A stretch of DNA of 64,000 nucleotides, from contig NZ_CP085154.1 in assembly GCF_022788695.1 (NCBI RefSeq), positions 434,001 through 498,000 on the forward strand, written 5' to 3'. Of this stretch, positions 30,035-48,061 are shown piece by piece. The DNA is from Pseudosulfitobacter sp. DSM 107133. Its GTDB lineage: Bacteria > Pseudomonadota > Alphaproteobacteria > Rhodobacterales > Rhodobacteraceae. The position numbers and the translations under genes are program-made. The notes beneath the pieces are model-generated. The model worked only from the letters and a program-made list of their open reading frames with translations, did not search any database and had not been told where the DNA came from. Position 1 is the first letter of the stretch, and each line of letters starts with the position of its first letter.

Positions 30035-30041
30035 AAAGATG

Positions 30042-30053
30042 CCGTAATGGGGC
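30042..30053. repeat. Left sub-terminal inverted repeat, IS copy 1
   Basis: CCGTAATGGGGC, 12 bp, exact reverse complement of 31581-31592. Confidence 0.85.
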
Positions 30054-30188
30054 TTTCGGCGAATCGAGCACGTTTCGCTTGTTTGTCAGCATGATCTGAA
30101 GTGCCGTTGCCCTTGATGCGCCTGCAGCGCGTCTACGAGGTCGTATGTTTCCATGCGCCTCAATTCCTAAGAATAGAAGGGCAACGAC

Positions 30189-31220
30189 ATGAATGTATTT
30201 ATCGGATTGGATGTATCTCTGGCAAGCACTGCGATTTGTGTGCTGGGGCCACAGGGGAGGATCGTTGAAGAATTACAGGCGGAGAGCGAGCCTGAGGCAT
30301 TAGTACGTGCAATAGCGTCATTGTCATATTCGATCGATGCGATCGGGCTCGAAGCCGGACCTTTGTCCCAATGGCTGAGCAAGGGAATGGAAGAAGCTGG
30401 CTTTGACGTGGTCATGATGGAAACACGATTGGTGAAGGCAGCCTTGAAAGCCATGCCGATCAAGACCGACAGGCGCGATGCCCAGGGCATTGCGCGCTTG
30501 CTTCAAATGGGATGGTACAGGCCCGTGCACCGCAAATCTGTGTCCTCCCAGGAAATCCGCGCGTTGCTGACGGCGCGCAAGTCAGTTCAGCAGGCCATCA
30601 TCAACCTTGAGCTTTCGATGCGGGGTGTTCTGCGAAACTTTGGCATGAAGCTGGGGCATGTCACCAGGATTAGGTACGAGGCCCGGGTGAGGGAACTGGT
30701 TGAGCAGAATGAGATCCTGTCCGCGTCGACTGAGGCTCTTCTGCGCGCGCGTTCCCAGTTGCGCGCCGAGTTGGCTGACTTGGATGCCAAAATCGCGGGT
30801 CTGGCAAAACACGACGATGTTTGCCGTTTGATGATGACGATGCCAGGTGTCGGTCCGATCGTCGCCCTGACAGTCAAATCTGCGATTGATGATCCGACCC
30901 GCTTTGCGCGGTCGAAGGATGTCGGACCGTGGGCGGGGCTTACGCCAAGGCGCACGCAATCCGGAGAGATGGACATCGTTGGACAAATCACGCGAGCCGG
31001 TGATCGCGGGCTTCGAACCGCGTTGTATCAGGCAGCGATGATCCTGATGCACCGTGGTGCCCCGAACTGGCTGCAATCTTGGGCACTTAAAGTAGCGCAC
31101 AGGCGTGGGGCGAAGAGGGCCATGATTGCACTTGCTCGACGCATTGGCGTCGTCTTGCACCGCATGTGGATAGACGGCACGCCGTTCCGCTACACGCAGA
31201 ACTCCGGCGCGACTGCATGA
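30189..31220 (+). CDS. IS110-family transposase (DEDD recombinase), copy 1
   Basis: 343-residue recombinase, identical in sequence to the copy at 46463. The N-terminal RuvC-like DEDD domain shows D8 (FIGLDVS), E55 (IGLEAGPLS) and D94/D97 (KTDRRDAQGIARLLQMGWY). A coiled-coil linker spans about 165-205. The C-terminal Tnp_IS110/IS116/IS902 domain has MPGVGPIVALTVKSAIDDP, the GPWAGLTPRRTQSGE segment with the likely catalytic S258, and GDRGLRTALYQAAM. Ribosome-binding site AGAAGGGCAACG lies before ATG 30189. In this family the enzyme acts with an element-encoded bridge RNA. The copy looks intact and potentially active. Confidence 0.93.
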   Translation: MNVFIGLDVSLASTAICVLGPQGRIVEELQAESEPEALVRAIASLSYSIDAIGLEAGPLSQWLSKGMEEAGFDVVMMETRLVKAALKAMPIKTDRRDAQGIARLLQMGWYRPVHRKSVSSQEIRALLTARKSVQQAIINLELSMRGVLRNFGMKLGHVTRIRYEARVRELVEQNEILSASTEALLRARSQLRAELADLDAKIAGLAKHDDVCRLMMTMPGVGPIVALTVKSAIDDPTRFARSKDVGPWAGLTPRRTQSGEMDIVGQITRAGDRGLRTALYQAAMILMHRGAPNWLQSWALKVAHRRGAKRAMIALARRIGVVLHRMWIDGTPFRYTQNSGATA

Positions 31221-31580
31221 GCGGGAAGCTTCAAGGACAATTCAGAGCGGAGGGTTGAGCTGCGCCTCATGACAGGTACGTCGAGGTCCCTTGCCGGGAC
31301 GAGGTTCCTGGAGATGCCGAAGGCCCGCAAGTTATCAGCAAATGCTGAATACGCGGGAAAGATGGGCACCCAGGACCAGATTTGGACCAGGCATAGAGTG
31401 GCAGCTATGAGGCTGACTACGGACGGAAGAACGAAGCCCGGGTAGGGGGTGTCCCTCAGTCCTGATGTGCGGTTGCAGTGAAAAAGGAAAAGTAAGCTTT
31501 TGAATTTGTGTCTTAAACTTGGTGAGGAATGAGATCCTCGCCGGGATTTTTGACTTGCCCGAAACCCTTGACAGAGGCCC
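31221..31580 (+). ncRNA. Candidate bridge RNA region of the IS, copy 1
   Basis: 360 bp of non-coding DNA between the transposase stop and the right inverted repeat, the place where IS1111-group elements are reported to encode their bridge RNA. It can fold: GTCCC-TTGCC-GGGAC (31286-31300), and GGTGAGGA (31521-31528) with TCCTCGCC (31535-31542) followed by TTTTT at 31547, resembling a terminator. CGAAGGCCCG (31318-31327) is an exact reverse complement of the right target flank 31596-31605. ACGGAAG (31423-31429) equals the element right end 31589-31595. The RNA itself and its ends are inferred. Confidence 0.5.
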
Positions 31581-31592
31581 GCCCCATTACGG
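31581..31592. repeat. Right sub-terminal inverted repeat, IS copy 1
   Basis: GCCCCATTACGG, 12 bp, reverse complement of 30042-30053; three bases from the inferred right end. Confidence 0.85.
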
Positions 31593-31595
31593 AAG

Positions 31596-31650
31596 CGGGC
31601 CTTCGCACAGATCGTCGCGAACGGCAGGAACGAGCCCAACTTGACCAATG
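31596..31650 (+). repeat. Repeat A, copy 2, right half (split by the IS)
   Basis: CGGGCCTTCGCACAGATCGTC followed by GCGAACGGCAGGAACGAGCCC. It corresponds to ACGGAACCTTCGCGCAGATC and GCGGCGAACGGTAGG in the intact copy at 33581. Confidence 0.75.
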
Positions 31651-40591: not shown

Positions 40592-41032
40592 ATGTCGAAC
40601 GAGATTTTCCTGATGAAAAGCATCAACGCCTTGAGCTCGGTCTTTGAGACGCGGGTTCAAAGCCTTGAACATGAACTGGACCTGTCGCGCCGCGAATTCC
40701 ACATCCTCATGCAGCTGACTGAAGCCAAACGCATGGGGGCGTTGGCCGAGGAGTTGCAGATTCTGCCGTCAACGCTGACGGCGATTGCCGACCGGCTTGA
40801 ACACGGCGGCCTGGTGTACCGCCTGCGCGACACGCAGGATCGCCGGGCGTGGCTGCTGGACGTGACCGACGCCGGGCGCGACTTGCAGATACATCTGGGT
40901 GAATTTGCTGCCCAGGAATTCCGCGAAGTGACCGGACTGAACAATCAGGAAATCGAGACCTTTGTCATGATGATGCAAAAAGTGATGAACAATATGACCT
41001 CTGACACCTGCTCTGAAGGGATGAAACCATGA
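40592..41032 (+). CDS. MarR-family regulator of the RND operon
   Basis: 146-residue winged-helix regulator, ATG 40592 (MSNEIFLMKSINALSSVFET). DNA-binding helices are in LSRREFHILMQLTEAKRMGALAEELQILPSTLTAIADRLEHGG; the wing is YRLRDTQDRRAWLLDVTDAG. Its stop overlaps the first adaptor start by four bases (41029-41032), so it is the first gene of the efflux operon. It probably represses the operon and is released by a drug-like ligand. Both are inferred from family behaviour. Confidence 0.87.
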   Translation: MSNEIFLMKSINALSSVFETRVQSLEHELDLSRREFHILMQLTEAKRMGALAEELQILPSTLTAIADRLEHGGLVYRLRDTQDRRAWLLDVTDAGRDLQIHLGEFAAQEFREVTGLNNQEIETFVMMMQKVMNNMTSDTCSEGMKP

Positions 41033-42114
41033 CACTGCGGGTCTTTGGGGGCCGCCAAGCCCTGCAAACCTTGTCTTTCTGGGCAGCTCTGACGCTGGCC
41101 GCCACAGGCGCAGTCGCGGAAGAGCCGCTGGCGGTCGAGATTGTCACCACCACACGCAGCGCGCAAACGCTGACCTATTCGCTGACCGGCGAGGTGGTCG
41201 CCCGCGACACGCTGCGCGCGTCGTTCCCGTCGGGGGGCCGCATTGCCAAGCTACAGGCCGAGGAAGGCGACAAGGTGAAACAGGGGGCCGTTCTGGCGCA
41301 GATGGACAGCGTGCAGCAGGTGCAGGCGCTGCGCGCCGCGCAGGCGGGGCTGTCCACCGCCCAGGCCAACCACACACAGGCCATCGAAGATCTTGACCGT
41401 CAGGATGCGCTGCTGGAACGCGGTGCCACCACACGGATCAGCCGCGACAGCGCCGAAGACGCTTTGCGCATCACCGAAGGTGCGCTGACGCAGGCCAATG
41501 CCGATCTGGAACGCGCGCAACGGGCGCTGGATGACACCACCCTTGCCGCCCCGACGGACGCAACCGTGATCGAGCGGCTGGCCGAACCCGGTCAGGTTGT
41601 CGGCGCCGCACAGCCGGTTCTGGAGCTGGCTCTGGGCAGCCAGATCGACGCGATCTTTGATATGCCCGAAGTGTTGATGTCCACGCCGCGACTTGTCGAC
41701 GAGATCGACCTTGCCCTGATCGACCGGCCCAACGTCCATTTCAGCGGCACCGTGCGCGAGGTCTCTCCGCTGGTGGACGCCGGGGCGGGCACAGTTGCGG
41801 TCAAGATCACGATAGAGGACACCGCCCCCAATATCACTTACGGCGACGCCATTCGCGGCACGGTAACTGTCACGGATCAACCCCGCATCGCCGTGCCCTA
41901 TACCGCGATGTCGGCCACGGCCGCGGGGCCTGCGGTCTGGGTTGTGAACCCTGACACGATGGCGGTGTCGCTGCGTCCCATCACCGTCGAACGCTATCAG
42001 ACCGGCTGGATCATACTGTCGGGCGGATTGGACGAAAACGAAGAGGTCGTCACACGCGGGGCGCAACTGCTTTACCCCGGCCGCATTGTACGTGCCGCAG
42101 GAGACAGCCAATGA
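41029..42114 (+). CDS. RND efflux periplasmic adaptor subunit 1
   Basis: Membrane-fusion protein of 361 residues, linking the inner-membrane pump to an outer-membrane channel. It has an N-terminal signal region (FWAALTLAATGAVAEEPLAV). The barrel-sandwich/lipoyl half is SFPSGGRIAKLQAEEGDKVKQG..LAQMD. A coiled-coil hairpin spans about 100-170. The second lipoyl half is TLAAPTDATVIERLAEPGQVV, followed by beta-barrel and membrane-proximal domains. It has no lipobox. Translationally coupled to marR and to the second adaptor. Confidence 0.88.
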   Translation: MTLRVFGGRQALQTLSFWAALTLAATGAVAEEPLAVEIVTTTRSAQTLTYSLTGEVVARDTLRASFPSGGRIAKLQAEEGDKVKQGAVLAQMDSVQQVQALRAAQAGLSTAQANHTQAIEDLDRQDALLERGATTRISRDSAEDALRITEGALTQANADLERAQRALDDTTLAAPTDATVIERLAEPGQVVGAAQPVLELALGSQIDAIFDMPEVLMSTPRLVDEIDLALIDRPNVHFSGTVREVSPLVDAGAGTVAVKITIEDTAPNITYGDAIRGTVTVTDQPRIAVPYTAMSATAAGPAVWVVNPDTMAVSLRPITVERYQTGWIILSGGLDENEEVVTRGAQLLYPGRIVRAAGDSQ

Positions 42115-43205
42115 AATCGCTCCCTGAACTGACACTTGTCCTGACCTTGCTGGCCGCGCTCGTTACACCGGCCCTTGCCAGCGACGACGCAACGCCCGCG
42201 CCGGACACTCCGCGCCCCGTGGTTTCCGAAATCGTGGACGCGCACGCAAGCTATCGCAGCCGCTTTGTCGGGATTGTCGGCGCGCGCACCGAAACCGATC
42301 TGGGCTTTTTGCTGGCGGGCACCCTTGCCGAACGCCCCGTGGAAACCGGCGACCTGGTGCAGAAAGGGGCCGTTCTGGCCCGCCTTGATCCCGAAGATCT
42401 GGACGCAGACGTGCGCGCCGCCGAAGCGGGTGTTCAGGTGGCCATGGCGCAGTTGCGCGCCGCGCGCGACGCTGAAAACCGCGCGCGCGAACTGCTGAGC
42501 CGTGGCACGGACAGCGCCACCCGTCTGGAAGACGCGGAACGCGCCCTGACCGGGGCCATTGCCACGGTTGAACAGTCCCGCGCCGCCCTTGCCCAGGCGC
42601 GCGACATGCGCAGCTTTGCCACGCTGACCGCGCCGCAGGACGGGGTGATTATTGAAACCGATGTGGAAGCAGGGGCTTCGGTCAGCGCGGGCCAGCGCGT
42701 CGTGGTGCTGGCAAGCACGGATATGCGCGAAATCACGCTGGACGTGACCGAGCGCGACGCGGCCGCGTTGAATGTGGGCCTGCTGTTCGATGTGACGCTG
42801 GCCGCCAACACCGACGTGACCGCACAGGCCGCGCTGCGGCGCATTGATCCGGTGGCCGCCACATCGACCCGCACGCGGCGCGTTCACCTGACCCTGCAAG
42901 ACCCGCCAGACGGCTTTCGTCTGGGCGCGCTGGTGCGCGTCTCTCCGGCCACCACGGCCGCGCTGGACATCACACTGGACCACAGCGCCGTTCTTGACCC
43001 CGAAGGCAGCCCCGCCGTCTGGATGGTCAGCCGCAGCGCGGATGGCGCGACAGGCACTGTCCATCGCACGCCGGTCGGTCTGGGCAGGCGCTTTGGCCCG
43101 CGCGTGCGCATCACCAGCGGCATCTCAGCCGGTGACGAAGTTGTCACCAAAGGTATCCATTCTCTAGAGGAGGGCCAGACTGTCGGCCCAGGCGTGTCCC
43201 AATGA
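42111..43205 (+). CDS. RND efflux periplasmic adaptor subunit 2
   Basis: A second, distinct adaptor of 364 residues immediately after the first, overlapping it by four bases. Signal peptide MKSLPELTLVLTLLAALVTPALA. The lipoyl halves are DLGFLLAGTLAERPVETGDLVQKG..LARLDPEDLD and FATLTAPQDGVIIETDVEAGASVSAG, with a helical hairpin (about 95-160) between them. Two adaptors for one pump suggest a hetero-oligomeric adaptor ring, as proposed for a few RND systems. Stop overlaps the pump start. Confidence 0.88.
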   Translation: MKSLPELTLVLTLLAALVTPALASDDATPAPDTPRPVVSEIVDAHASYRSRFVGIVGARTETDLGFLLAGTLAERPVETGDLVQKGAVLARLDPEDLDADVRAAEAGVQVAMAQLRAARDAENRARELLSRGTDSATRLEDAERALTGAIATVEQSRAALAQARDMRSFATLTAPQDGVIIETDVEAGASVSAGQRVVVLASTDMREITLDVTERDAAALNVGLLFDVTLAANTDVTAQAALRRIDPVAATSTRTRRVHLTLQDPPDGFRLGALVRVSPATTAALDITLDHSAVLDPEGSPAVWMVSRSADGATGTVHRTPVGLGRRFGPRVRITSGISAGDEVVTKGIHSLEEGQTVGPGVSQ

Positions 43206-46200
43206 ACCGTTTCAACCTGTCCGACTGGGCGCTGCAACACCGGTCTTTCGTGTGGTTCCTGATGATCGTGTCGATCGTTGCAGGGGCGCTGGCCTATAGC
43301 ACCATCGGGCGCGAGGAAGACCCCAACTTTGCGATCAAGACCATGGTGATCTCCTCAGCGTTGCCCGGCGCGGATGTTGAAGAAATGCGCATGCAGGTCA
43401 CCGACCGGATCGAGAAAAAGCTGGAAGACCTGCCTGAACTGGATTTCACCCGCTCGGTCACGCGCCCCGGCCAGACCGTTGTCTATGTCAATCTGCTGGA
43501 CACCGTGCGCGGCGACAAGCTGCGCCAGACCTGGCAAAAAGTCCGCAACATGATGAACGACATTCGCGGCGATTTCCCGGACGGGTTTTCCGGGTTTCAG
43601 TTCAATGACGACTTTGGCGATGTCTTTGGCAACCTCTACGCCTTTACCTCGGACGGGTTCAGCCCGCGCGAGGTGCGTGACTATGTCGAACAGACCCGCC
43701 GCGCGATTCAACAGCTGGACGATTCCGGCAAGATCGAGATTTTCGGCACCCGCGATGAAGTGGTCTATATGGAATATTCCACCGAACGGCTGGCGGCCCT
43801 GGGGCTGAACCAGCAGGCGGTACAGGCGACACTGGCCGCCCAGAACGCGATTGTGCCCAGCGGTGTGATCGACGCAGGCCCCGAACGGGTTCTGGTGCGG
43901 ATCGGCGGGCAGTTTACCGATGCTGCAAGCCTTCAGGACATCAACCTGCGGGTCGACGGGCGGTTTTTCCGGCTGACCGACGTGGCCGACATTCACCGTG
44001 GTTACGAGGACCCGCCGTCGGAACTGTTCCATTACAACGGCCAGGAGGCCATTGGCCTTGCCGTTGGGATGCGCTCGGGGGCCAATATCGTCGATTTTGG
44101 CACGGAGCTGGACAAGGTCATTGCTCAGGCACAGGCTGATCTGCCCGTGGGCATCCAGATCCAGCAGGTCGCGGACCAGCCGCATGTGGTGGAGGAGGCC
44201 GTGGGCCATTTCATTCAGGCGCTGGTCGAGGCCGTGCTGATTGTTCTGGCTGTCAGCTTTGTCAGCCTGGGGATGCGCGCAGGCTTTGTGGTGGCGCTGA
44301 CGATCCCGCTGGTGCTGGCGATCACCTTTGTGATCCTGAACTATCTGGATTTCACCCTGCAACGGATTTCGCTGGGGGCGCTGATTATCGCGCTGGGGCT
44401 GTTGGTGGATGATGCGATGATTGCCATCGAAACCATGATCTCGCGGCTGGAGCGGGGCGAAAGCCTGACCAAATCCGCCTCTTACGCGTGGACCTCGATT
44501 GCCTTTCCGATGCTGTCGGGCACGCTGGTGACGGTGGTGGGCTTTATCCCGATCGGGTTGAATTCGTCTTCGGCGGGGGAATTCACCTTTTCCCTGTTCG
44601 TCGTCATTGCGGTGTCGTTGCTGGTCAGCTGGATCGTCGCGGTTCTGTTTGCGCCCTTGTTGGGGGTCACTTTCCTGCCCGCAAAGTGGAAGCATCACAC
44701 AGGTGAACCGGGGCGCGTGCGCGGGGCTTTCCACCGCATCCTGCGGGGGGCCATGCGGTTTCGCTGGGTGACAATTGCGACCACTGTCGTTGTCTTTGGT
44801 ATTTCGGTCTGGGGGCTGGGTTCGGTTGAAAACCAGTTCTTCCCCAGCTCGGACCGCCCCGAGCTGATCGTTGACATGACCCTGCCACAGAACGCGTCGA
44901 TTTCCGAGACACAGGCGCAGGTCGAAAAGATGGAAAACCACCTGCAAGGCAACGAGAACATATTGTTCCATTCGTCCTATGTCGGACGCAGCGCCCCGCG
45001 CTTTATTCTGGCCTATGACGTGCTGACGCCCAGCCCGAACACCGCGCAGATCGTGATACAGACGCCATCGGTTGCAGCGCGCAATGCGTTGCGCGACGAT
45101 ATCGAAACCTATGCCGCCGACGCCTTTCCCGGCACCGATATCTTTGTGAAACTGCTGGAAGTCGGCCCGCCCGTTGGCCGCCCTGTGCAATACCGGATCA
45201 GCGGCCCCGAGAGCGACCGCGTGCGTGATCTGGCACGCGGGCTGGCGGCTTTGGTCGCCTCGGACCCGCGCACCAAAAGCACCGTGATGGACTGGAACGA
45301 ACCGTCGCGGGTGGTGCGGGTGAACCTGTTGCAGGACAAGGCGCGCCAGCTTGGCCTGTCCTCCTCGGACATCGCCAATGCCCTGAACGCGGTCTATGTC
45401 GGCGCGCGGGTCACGCAATTGCGGGATGCGGCCTATCTGATCGACATCGTGGCGCGTGGTGATGACACGGCGCGCCAGTCGGTCGAGGCGTTGGAGGAAT
45501 TGCAGCTGAACCTCTCGGACGGTGTCACGATCCCGCTGCAATCGGTTGCCACCTTTGAATACGACACCGAACAGCCGGTCTTGTACCAGCGTGGCCGTAT
45601 GCCCACCGTGACGGTGATGGCGGCAATTGCCACCGACGATCAACCGGCAACCGCGGTCAACGATCTGGCCGACAAGGTCGCGGCCTTTCGTGCCGATCTG
45701 CCGCTGGGTTACAAGGTGGTTGTGGGCGGGTCGGTTGAATCCAGCGCCGAAAGCCAGGGGCCGATCGCGTCGGTCATGCCGTTGATGATGTTGCTGATGC
45801 TGGTTCTGATCATGATCCAGATGCAAAGCTTCCGCCTCGGCTTTGTCGTGCTGTGCGCCGCGCCGCTGGGGCTGATCGGTGTGGTGGCGGCACTGTTGCT
45901 GTCGGGGGCGCCTCTGGGGTTTGTGGCGATCCTGGGCGTTCTGGCGTTGGTCGGCATCCTGATCCGCAACTCGATCATTCTGGTCCACGAGATCGAAGTG
46001 CTGCGCGAAAAGGGCCGCACGGCGTGGGCTGCGGTGTTCGAGGCCAGCGACAGCCGGGCGCGTCCGATCCTGCTGACGGCGGCGGCGGCGAGCCTTGCGC
46101 TGATCCCGATCTCGCGCCAGATTTTCTGGGGGCCGATGGCCTTTGCGATGATGGGCGGGATCATTGTCGGCACGATTGTGACGCTGCTGTTTGTGCCTGC

Positions 46201-46255
46201 GCTGTATCTGGCCGTGTTCAATGTGAAGCCGGACGGGGAGGATGGCGCGGCGTGA
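43202..46255 (+). CDS. RND-family efflux pump, inner-membrane permease
   Basis: 1,017-residue proton-driven transporter (AcrB/HAE1-like). TM1 lies near 15-35, followed by TIGREEDPNFAIKTMVI, typical of the branch. The periplasmic porter loops contain DFTRSVTRPGQTVVYVNL. TM4 carries the Asp-Asp proton relay in LGLLVDDAMIAIETM (about 405), and GFIPIGLNSSSAGEF follows. The second half repeats the fold, with ILGVLALVGILIRNSIILVHEIEVLREKG. No outer-membrane factor gene follows, so it must use one encoded elsewhere. The next element is an IS. Confidence 0.93.
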   Translation: MNRFNLSDWALQHRSFVWFLMIVSIVAGALAYSTIGREEDPNFAIKTMVISSALPGADVEEMRMQVTDRIEKKLEDLPELDFTRSVTRPGQTVVYVNLLDTVRGDKLRQTWQKVRNMMNDIRGDFPDGFSGFQFNDDFGDVFGNLYAFTSDGFSPREVRDYVEQTRRAIQQLDDSGKIEIFGTRDEVVYMEYSTERLAALGLNQQAVQATLAAQNAIVPSGVIDAGPERVLVRIGGQFTDAASLQDINLRVDGRFFRLTDVADIHRGYEDPPSELFHYNGQEAIGLAVGMRSGANIVDFGTELDKVIAQAQADLPVGIQIQQVADQPHVVEEAVGHFIQALVEAVLIVLAVSFVSLGMRAGFVVALTIPLVLAITFVILNYLDFTLQRISLGALIIALGLLVDDAMIAIETMISRLERGESLTKSASYAWTSIAFPMLSGTLVTVVGFIPIGLNSSSAGEFTFSLFVVIAVSLLVSWIVAVLFAPLLGVTFLPAKWKHHTGEPGRVRGAFHRILRGAMRFRWVTIATTVVVFGISVWGLGSVENQFFPSSDRPELIVDMTLPQNASISETQAQVEKMENHLQGNENILFHSSYVGRSAPRFILAYDVLTPSPNTAQIVIQTPSVAARNALRDDIETYAADAFPGTDIFVKLLEVGPPVGRPVQYRISGPESDRVRDLARGLAALVASDPRTKSTVMDWNEPSRVVRVNLLQDKARQLGLSSSDIANALNAVYVGARVTQLRDAAYLIDIVARGDDTARQSVEALEELQLNLSDGVTIPLQSVATFEYDTEQPVLYQRGRMPTVTVMAAIATDDQPATAVNDLADKVAAFRADLPLGYKVVVGGSVESSAESQGPIASVMPLMMLLMLVLIMIQMQSFRLGFVVLCAAPLGLIGVVAALLLSGAPLGFVAILGVLALVGILIRNSIILVHEIEVLREKGRTAWAAVFEASDSRARPILLTAAAASLALIPISRQIFWGPMAFAMMGGIIVGTIVTLLFVPALYLAVFNVKPDGEDGAA

Positions 46256-46308: not shown

Positions 46309-46315
46309 AAAGATG

Positions 46316-46327
46316 CCGTAATGGGGC
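46316..46327. repeat. Left sub-terminal inverted repeat, IS copy 2
   Basis: CCGTAATGGGGC, pairing with 47855-47866. Confidence 0.85.
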
Positions 46328-46462
46328 TTTCGGCGAATCGAGCACGTTTCGCTTGTTTGTCAGCATGATCTGAAGTGCCGTTGCCCTTGATGCGCCTGCA
46401 GCGCGTCTACGAGGTCGTATGTTTCCATGCGCCTCAATTCCTAAGAATAGAAGGGCAACGAC

Positions 46463-47494
46463 ATGAATGTATTTATCGGATTGGATGTATCTCTGGCAAG
46501 CACTGCGATTTGTGTGCTGGGGCCACAGGGGAGGATCGTTGAAGAATTACAGGCGGAGAGCGAGCCTGAGGCATTAGTACGTGCAATAGCGTCATTGTCA
46601 TATTCGATCGATGCGATCGGGCTCGAAGCCGGACCTTTGTCCCAATGGCTGAGCAAGGGAATGGAAGAAGCTGGCTTTGACGTGGTCATGATGGAAACAC
46701 GATTGGTGAAGGCAGCCTTGAAAGCCATGCCGATCAAGACCGACAGGCGCGATGCCCAGGGCATTGCGCGCTTGCTTCAAATGGGATGGTACAGGCCCGT
46801 GCACCGCAAATCTGTGTCCTCCCAGGAAATCCGCGCGTTGCTGACGGCGCGCAAGTCAGTTCAGCAGGCCATCATCAACCTTGAGCTTTCGATGCGGGGT
46901 GTTCTGCGAAACTTTGGCATGAAGCTGGGGCATGTCACCAGGATTAGGTACGAGGCCCGGGTGAGGGAACTGGTTGAGCAGAATGAGATCCTGTCCGCGT
47001 CGACTGAGGCTCTTCTGCGCGCGCGTTCCCAGTTGCGCGCCGAGTTGGCTGACTTGGATGCCAAAATCGCGGGTCTGGCAAAACACGACGATGTTTGCCG
47101 TTTGATGATGACGATGCCAGGTGTCGGTCCGATCGTCGCCCTGACAGTCAAATCTGCGATTGATGATCCGACCCGCTTTGCGCGGTCGAAGGATGTCGGA
47201 CCGTGGGCGGGGCTTACGCCAAGGCGCACGCAATCCGGAGAGATGGACATCGTTGGACAAATCACGCGAGCCGGTGATCGCGGGCTTCGAACCGCGTTGT
47301 ATCAGGCAGCGATGATCCTGATGCACCGTGGTGCCCCGAACTGGCTGCAATCTTGGGCACTTAAAGTAGCGCACAGGCGTGGGGCGAAGAGGGCCATGAT
47401 TGCACTTGCTCGACGCATTGGCGTCGTCTTGCACCGCATGTGGATAGACGGCACGCCGTTCCGCTACACGCAGAACTCCGGCGCGACTGCATGA
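46463..47494 (+). CDS. IS110-family transposase (DEDD recombinase), copy 2
   Basis: 343 residues, identical to the product of 30189-31220: RuvC-like residues D8, E55, D94/D97 and C-terminal serine S258. Start ATG 46463 after AGAAGGGCAACG. Apparently intact, so either copy could supply recombinase for both. It lies 207 bp after the RND pump gene and in the same direction, so read-through transcription from the efflux operon is possible. Confidence 0.93.
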   Translation: MNVFIGLDVSLASTAICVLGPQGRIVEELQAESEPEALVRAIASLSYSIDAIGLEAGPLSQWLSKGMEEAGFDVVMMETRLVKAALKAMPIKTDRRDAQGIARLLQMGWYRPVHRKSVSSQEIRALLTARKSVQQAIINLELSMRGVLRNFGMKLGHVTRIRYEARVRELVEQNEILSASTEALLRARSQLRAELADLDAKIAGLAKHDDVCRLMMTMPGVGPIVALTVKSAIDDPTRFARSKDVGPWAGLTPRRTQSGEMDIVGQITRAGDRGLRTALYQAAMILMHRGAPNWLQSWALKVAHRRGAKRAMIALARRIGVVLHRMWIDGTPFRYTQNSGATA

Positions 47495-47854
47495 GCGGGA
47501 AGCTTCAAGGACAATTCAGAGCGGAGGGTTGAGCTGCGCCTCATGACAGGTACGTCGAGGTCCCTTGCCGGGACGAGGTTCCTGGAGATGCCGAAGGCCC
47601 GCAAGTTATCAGCAAATGCTGAATACGCGGGAAAGATGGGCACCCAGGACCAGATTTGGACCAGGCATAGAGTGGCAGCTATGAGGCTGACTACGGACGG
47701 AAGAACGAAGCCCGGGTAGGGGGTGTCCCTCAGTCCTGATGTGCGGTTGCAGTGAAAAAGGAAAAGTAAGCTTTTGAATTTGTGTCTTAAACTTGGTGAG
47801 GAATGAGATCCTCGCCGGGATTTTTGACTTGCCCGAAACCCTTGACAGAGGCCC
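47495..47854 (+). ncRNA. Candidate bridge RNA region of the IS, copy 2
   Basis: Same 360-bp non-coding segment as 31221-31580. The candidate target guide CGAAGGCCCG (47592-47601) pairs with the local right flank CGGGCGTTCG (47870-47879) at nine of ten positions. The RNA is inferred, not shown. Confidence 0.45.
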
Positions 47855-47866
47855 GCCCCATTACGG
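47855..47866. repeat. Right sub-terminal inverted repeat, IS copy 2
   Basis: GCCCCATTACGG, three bases from the inferred right end of the element. Confidence 0.85.
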
Positions 47867-47869
47867 AAG

Positions 47870-47920: not shown

Positions 47921-47930
47921 GTCACCTGCG

Positions 47931-48041
47931 CGGCGATTTGGTTGCTGTTGCGCGTGACGGACAGCTGGGCTGTGCTTGGCTGCCATAAAGTGGCATGCAC
48001 GACGGTCGGATCGCCGCACCACGGCCCGTCGATGCGCGGCT
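47931..48041 (+). repeat. Repeat D, copy 1
   Basis: CGGCGATTTGGTTGCTGTTG..CTTGGCTGCCATAAAGTGGCA..GGTCGGATCGCCG..CCCGTCGATGCGCGGCTT. A direct, roughly 80-85 % similar copy lies at 54196-54307. The rest of 47921-48180 shows no gene. Confidence 0.78.
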
Positions 48042-48061
48042 TAGCGAACATCAGCTATGTC

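Follow-up and report, generated by a model that had tools for sequence, protein, structure and literature searches.

The non-coding region that directly follows a recombinase gene in the analysed 64,000-nt stretch of DNA (the window) very likely encodes, at 31281-31442, the guide RNA of an IS1111-group insertion sequence (IS), with one loop for the target and one for the donor. By sequence, four lines of evidence were found, namely the position of the region, its conserved structure, the covariation of four pairings between RNA and DNA, and repeated insertion at matching sites, while transcription, protein binding, a circular intermediate and strand exchange at AG are steps that we infer. The sequence-only reading of this DNA had proposed a bridge RNA or seekRNA with a target guide downstream of the IS1111 recombinase. 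Covariation strongly supports that proposal, whereas the left guide and the guide order that came with it did not hold. The features are collected in Table 1.

Table 1. Features of the IS1111-group element and its predicted guide RNA (window positions unless another contig is named)
Feature	Position	Strand	Remarks
IS1111-group IS, copy 1	30035..31595	+	1561 bp (7-bp/3-bp convention); delimited by comparing the three copies and by the inverted repeats
Left subterminal inverted repeat CCGTAATGGGGC	30042..30053	+	12 bp
DEDD recombinase (transposase), 343 aa	30189..31220	+	Single gene of the IS
Predicted bridge RNA / seekRNA	31281..31442	+	Span of covariance model R1
5' hairpin GTCCC..GGGAC	31286..31300	+	Paired and kept in relatives with other targets
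Target-loop stem	31303..31377	+	31303-31311 with 31370-31377, 31315-31318 with 31365-31368; RNAalifold compensatory pairs, single-sequence fold
Right target guide (RTG) AAGGCCCG	31320..31327	+	Partner: right flank 31596-31603, top strand; 10-nt match reaches 31318
Apical hairpin between the two target guides	31331..31353 (approximate limits)	+	Several compensatory pairs
Left target guide GGGAAAG, includes AG core	31355..31361	+	Partner: bottom strand of the left flank, whose last base is 30038
Right donor guide (RDG) GGCAT	31390..31394	+	Partner: IS left end ATGCC (30039-30043), top strand
Hairpin between the two donor guides	31398..31421 (approximate limits)	+	Consensus fold
Left donor guide (LDG) ACGGAAG	31423..31429	+	Partner: IS right end ACGGAAG (31589-31595), bottom strand
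Intrinsic-terminator-like hairpin and TTTTT	31515..31551	+	z -4.5; 0/200 shuffles fold as well
TTGACA, -35-like	31568..31573	+	TTGAC kept in 24/25 distinct right-end tails
Right subterminal inverted repeat GCCCCATTACGG, then AAG end	31581..31592	+	12 bp
Right target flank CGGGCCTTCG	31596..31605	+	Sequence match
IS copy 2	46309..47869	+	Its predicted RNA is 47555-47716
Second IS1111 family, copies L118, L119, L149, L150	C1:720921, 1861383, 2989318, 3346858		

The recombinase matches PF01548, PF02371 and NCBIfam IS110, and its length lies within the 330-350 aa of IS1111-group transposases, which combine both Pfam domains with the pattern GL-P----S(T)G; here the motif is GLTPRRTQSG with S258-G259. 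The residues D8, E55, D94, D97 and S258, which had been named beforehand, are all present. Similarity to TIGR-Tas is weak (28.1 bits, far under the curated cut-off of 100). As in other members of the group, the non-coding stretch downstream of the gene is long (31221-31595). The subterminal inverted repeats match at 12 of 12 bp, a length within the roughly 7-17 bp expected for the group, with outer extensions of 7 bp on the left and 3 bp on the right, and the ends are laid out as AAAG-ATG-CCGTAATGGGGC and GCCCCATTACGG-AAG. The genome holds three copies, nearly identical to their ends and with differing sequence outside: two in the window, copy 2 being 16,274 bp beyond copy 1, and a third on a 129-kb contig. 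The conservation of TTGAC fits a promoter at the circle junction and is only suggestive of one.

The left extension is AAAG (30035-30038) in both window copies and AGAG in the third copy and in relatives L003 and L007. Relative L014 presents a natural unoccupied version of the L003/L007-type (AGAG) site, ...CAAAGGGAGAG TGGGCCTTTT..., with no added bases. Because this empty site carries the four bases left of ATG, they look target-derived, and the IS proper would therefore start at ATG 30039 and extend as ATG...AAG with a shared AG. At the parB-side target there is thus no target duplication. For copy 2, alignable empty sites in two same-genus genomes (L157, L158) agree with this, with mismatches and indels near the junction. 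At what is apparently one plasmid site, L010 and L028 have AAAG and L003, L007 and L011 have AGAG, a difference due either to polymorphism of the site or to bases that come from the donor. The DNA immediately to the left of copy 2 (41029-46255) holds an AcrB-type RND transporter gene and two HlyD-like genes. Some 57 bases beyond the right end of copy 2, roughly at 47926-48045, lies a stretch of ~117 bases (query 259-376) that has many copies in this genome and in same-genus genomes.

Relatives were collected from genome contigs (59 loci), viral contigs (1) and plasmid records (211); whole-genome searches gave matches in 46 of 394 family members at the DNA level and, at the protein level, in 17 of 385 members of the class and 39 of 295 of the family. 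We aligned the 3' regions of 47 elements from a paired-repeat pattern search, after removal of reverse-strand readings and duplicates. The consensus fold of 28 non-redundant RNAs has 29 pairs, 15 with changes on both sides, and consists of the 5' hairpin, a stem that encloses both target guides and the apical hairpin, and a second hairpin with a donor guide on either side. Folded alone, 31280-31382 was more stable than its shuffles (z -3.9, 0/200 as good) and 31378-31450 was no better than them (z -1.0, 34/200 as good). The hairpin and TTTTT with which the region had been said to end were found. Rfam gave no match for the region up to E=1. A covariance-model search from homologous IS 3' regions had been proposed as a check, and it recovered the structured RNA in relatives: of the 73 other loci searched, 49 had matches to model R1 at E<=1e-4 (50 in all), some of these matches being to elements already in the model. 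The matches reach elements with transposase identity down to about 34-45%, and in many distant relatives the RNA is just after the transposase. Over the window, R1 found just the two IS copies up to E=10, and over the whole own genome it found all three, plus two weak matches (E 0.05 and 0.07).

The proposed right target guide stood: the reverse complement of CGAAGGCCCG (31318-31327) is identical to the right flank at 31596-31605, and natural covariation agrees with this role. The 10-mer recurs in 25 of 20,000 dinucleotide shuffles of the non-coding region (31221-31580), and when five flank or end 10-mers in either sense are allowed, a chance match arises in 97 of 20,000, so that the 10-nt match by itself is suggestive and not decisive. 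That frequency of 25 in 20,000, together with a position directly after the stop codon and a terminator-like hairpin at the end, would also fit a conserved region that acts in cis as a DNA site or forms, at the 3' end of the mRNA, a structure stabilising the recombinase transcript, with the target match due to chance. We regard this explanation as highly improbable, considering that compensatory pairs and covariation with flanks outside the IS are unexpected under it and that the covariation of guides with targets already contradicts it.

Among the relatives, RTG and right flank are AAGGCCCG/CGGGCCTT in window copy 1, AAAGCCCG/CGGGCTTT in L016, AAGGAAA/TTTCCTT in L024, AAGAACA/TGTTCTT in L045, GGTTGTCG/CGACAACC in L033, GAGCCGC/GCGGCTC in L082 and CGATGC/GCATCG in L094. 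On the left side, identical letters are in the RNA and the left flank (CTGGTAG in L031, TGTTGAG in L033, CTGAAAG in L077). The RTG of L076, L034 and L055 fits the right flank poorly.

The sequence-only reading had placed the left guide at 31288-31298, ahead of the right guide at 31318-31327, as in the IS110/IS621 order. CCCTTGCCGGG is indeed present at 31288, by eye it agrees with copy 2's left flank in 9 of 11 letters, and the neighbouring window 31285-31292 scores z 3.6 against the bottom strand of the left flank. However, the segment pairs within the conserved GTCCC..GGGAC hairpin, which is kept in relatives with unrelated targets, and the 8-nt windows starting at 31286-31292 score z -2.4 to 2.1 over eight region and strand choices, with 1.6 as the highest value against the left flank, whereas 31353-31363 reach 8-10. 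As such, we rejected this segment as the left guide and give its order almost no credence. Because the better-supported left guide (31355-31361) lies 3' of the right guide, the order is reversed, and the segment pairing with the top strand (31320-31327) precedes the one pairing with the bottom strand, as in seekRNAs.

To relate guides to sites, the ends of each element were chosen blind to the RNA, by taking the best inverted repeat without gaps that lay within set ranges of distance. The R1 search over 67 hand-chosen loci, with duplicates left out, gave 73 rows. Six were dropped, covering five weaker or off-place matches and both matches of L113, which has a partial transposase (E 2.7e-8 and 2.9e-6); the others are L040:1277, L039:70, L013:5194 and L115:832. 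From 67 RNAs, 39 had one best inverted repeat and 28 were left out (23 with none, 5 tied); three kept elements (L132, L118, L039) have wrongly picked ends. In the shuffle tests, close relatedness was removed by clustering only.

All four pairings exceeded 20,000 of 20,000 shuffles in these 39 elements from 19 RNA clusters (38 elements for two pairings), and did so again when a single element was drawn from each RNA cluster, in three such draws (18-19 elements). The check that had been suggested, whether guide variation co-varies with target flanks among homologues, thus came out positive on both the right and the left side. The own region was best or tied-best for only 11-14 of 19 cluster representatives with the RDG and 10-11 of 18-19 with the RTG. 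We also scanned 8-nt RNA windows against eight region and strand choices, using 19 hand-fixed representatives where the shuffle test used random draws. Out of 1,240 combinations, 28 had z>4, and 26 of them fell in the four pairings; the other two score the edge of the left guide against the bottom strand of the left end, a region that overlaps the left flank. With fixed columns and 31 unique pairs, the right target scored 6.15 of 9 (3.77 shuffled) and the left target 6.95 of 9 (4.66 shuffled), values that 0/20,000 shuffles reach in either case.

The segment ACGGAAG at 31423-31429, already put forward as a donor guide, is present, is the only copy in 31221-31580 and co-varies with the right end of the IS. 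The fourth guide, RDG, was absent from the sequence-only reading. By eye, left end ATACC goes with RNA GGTAT/AGTAT (L076, L031), ATGTC with GACAT (L034, L039, L040, L042) and ATGGGG with CCCCAT (L101), and right ends ATGGAAG, ACCGAAG, ACAGAAG and AGAGAAG have identical letters in the RNA. L026 is a mismatch, with GGCAG as its RDG, and in L023, L024, L031 and L036 the right end differs from the LDG, each difference amounting to a G.T wobble. In the distant relative L108, which has a non-AG core, the right end is AGACAAC, the RNA has GAGACAAC and the pairing rule is kept. Its right end AGACAACC and a left flank ending in ATAC are followed by the RNA guides, and the core dinucleotide may thus switch in nature.

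In an alternative reading, the RNA guides target choice only, the protein reads the ends via the subterminal repeats, and any match of the RNA to the ends is a leftover or chance. In the consulted parts of Siddiquee et al. 2024, an 82-nt target-only RNA was sufficient for ISEc11 movement and the role of the long RNA was left open (PMC11187229), a result that sits uneasily with a needed donor loop. Because the donor guides vary little, close relatives carry little information on them. In the small close set, the RDG with 4 unique pairs (1,698/20,000 shuffles as good) and the LDG with 7 (383/20,000) were not or weakly significant, and as this first unique-donor-pair test was too small, the wider element set was used. 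There, in contrast with what a target-only RNA predicts, the RDG co-varies with the left end and the LDG with the right end over 19 clusters (0/20,000 shuffles in four runs), and the donor pairings make up two of the four peaks in the unbiased scan. We therefore consider a target-only RNA unlikely for this element and favour the RNA with target and donor loops.

An independent case is a second IS1111-type family in the same genome, which has its own downstream RNA and 44% transposase identity to the window element. Its four copies agree in their ends and resemble one another in their flanks, which share GGCGGGR-AGC and KGWCRTTCGCTGC; between L118 and L119, 1,372 bp show no difference. In its RNA, GCCGGGAAGC matches the left flanks GGCGGGR-AGC, AATGTC matches the right flanks KGWCRTT, and AGAGAAGC matches the right end. 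The genome-wide R1 search missed this family; when the locus was supplied, the RNA was found (35 bits, E 3.8e-8).

The flanks of 26 of the 29 elements with 86-100% transposase identity hold genes of one cluster from plasmids of marine bacteria, ardC-DUF3768-parB-sno (loci listed as L003, L007-L029, L043, L045, L068, L071, and L169, L170). These 29 come from about 20 assemblies, two of which give four elements each. The cluster comprises ardC, whose product has ArdC and zincin domains, DUF6330, DUF3768, a parB-like gene, a regulator, a strawberry-notch-like helicase and DUF6878. The IS occupies intergenic gaps: before the gene preceding ardC (four elements: L024, L026, L045, L071), between DUF6330 and DUF3768 (six), between DUF3768 and parB (eight), before the strawberry-notch-like gene (the fourth site, six) and between that gene and DUF6878 (two). 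All reported cluster-gene matches are oriented as the IS. The remaining three are the two chromosomal copies in the window and L023, which has little downstream sequence and the right flank of the fourth site. L031 (69% transposase identity, unrelated guide) also belongs to this cluster, where it lies at the end of DUF3768, which brings the count to 27 of the 46 elements tested. The cluster may be a plasmid leading region, as ardC and such genes would suggest.

Three guide classes correspond to these sites: AAGGCCCR to the parB site, AAAGCCCG to three sites with common CGGGCTTT or CTGGCTTT, and AAGGACA/AAGAACA/AAGGAAA to the site before ardC. Among the fetched matches in annotated plasmids, DUF3768 was within the stretch in 7/7 and a ParB-like gene in 6/7; plasmids pRR4-35_2 and pRR4-35_4 show the cluster. 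Since L003 and L008 are 98.1% identical as elements and only 75-77% in their flanks, the same IS reached the same site in diverged plasmids. In one strain, identical IS are at three positions on its plasmids (L015, L016, L019, L021). We also considered intrinsic terminators as the targets. A clear hairpin with a T-run was found only at some sites (the DUF3768-parB site and its kin: L003, L008, L010, L011, L029), and the target sites of window copies 1 and 2 have no clear terminator hairpins, so terminator targeting is not claimed as a rule; a literature search on terminators and IS110 found nothing. In searches without preprints and most subscription journals, we found no paper on this cluster as an IS110/IS1111 target or on donor-guide covariation in IS1111.

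The RNA resembles the IS1111 seekRNAs of ISEc11, ISPa11 and ISKpn4, which, in the parts of that study consulted (PMC11187229), likewise involve the non-coding DNA 3' of a DEDD transposase of 330-350 aa, inverted repeats in subterminal position, insertion without target duplication, natural retargeting between relatives (described there for two pairs) and a top-strand match 5' of the bottom-strand match. The window element differs from these in sequence, hosts and targets, and it adds two segments that match and co-vary with the IS ends; the experiments there, in the same parts, needed the target part only and left end recognition open. With the IS110/IS621 bridge RNA it shares a target and a donor loop with two guides each, flanked here by conserved stems, and a common dinucleotide core (PMC11208160, consulted in part). 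However, the IS110/IS621 RNA lies upstream of the recombinase with the bottom-strand guide first, whereas the RNA described here is downstream with the guide order reversed in each loop, the core is AG in most relatives here and CT there, and long subterminal repeats are present here. Based on the downstream position and the reversed guide order, the RNA is of the IS1111 kind. In a working model, the guide RNA would be transcribed after the recombinase gene, with the terminator ending the transcript, and would fold into a target loop and a donor loop, which the recombinase would use to join circle and target at the common AG core without target duplication.

The kind of RNA is thus already known, and what is added here is sequence evidence that points to an RNA reading the ends of its own IS, and the finding that one gene cluster of plasmids hosts, under three guide classes, 26 of the 29 close relatives. 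Whether IS1111 RNAs read the target only or their own ends too is left open in the seekRNA study (PMC11187229), and Durrant et al. 2024 predicts, by inspection, donor-binding nucleotides in IS1111 RNAs (PMC11208160), as far as the consulted parts of both go. The question is directly testable because many natural changes of IS ends are mirrored in the RNA. Taken all together, IS1111 RNAs are probably bridge RNAs with a full set of four guides, those for the donor evolving together with the ends of the IS, and the subfamily is probably a specialist of one conjugative-plasmid cluster, moved between neighbouring intergenic sites by small guide edits, with the cluster as its vehicle between hosts. 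The natural guide and site pairs document how retargeting proceeds in nature, in this case inside a single gene cluster of plasmids, and they supply compact natural RNA-guided recombinases with known sites.
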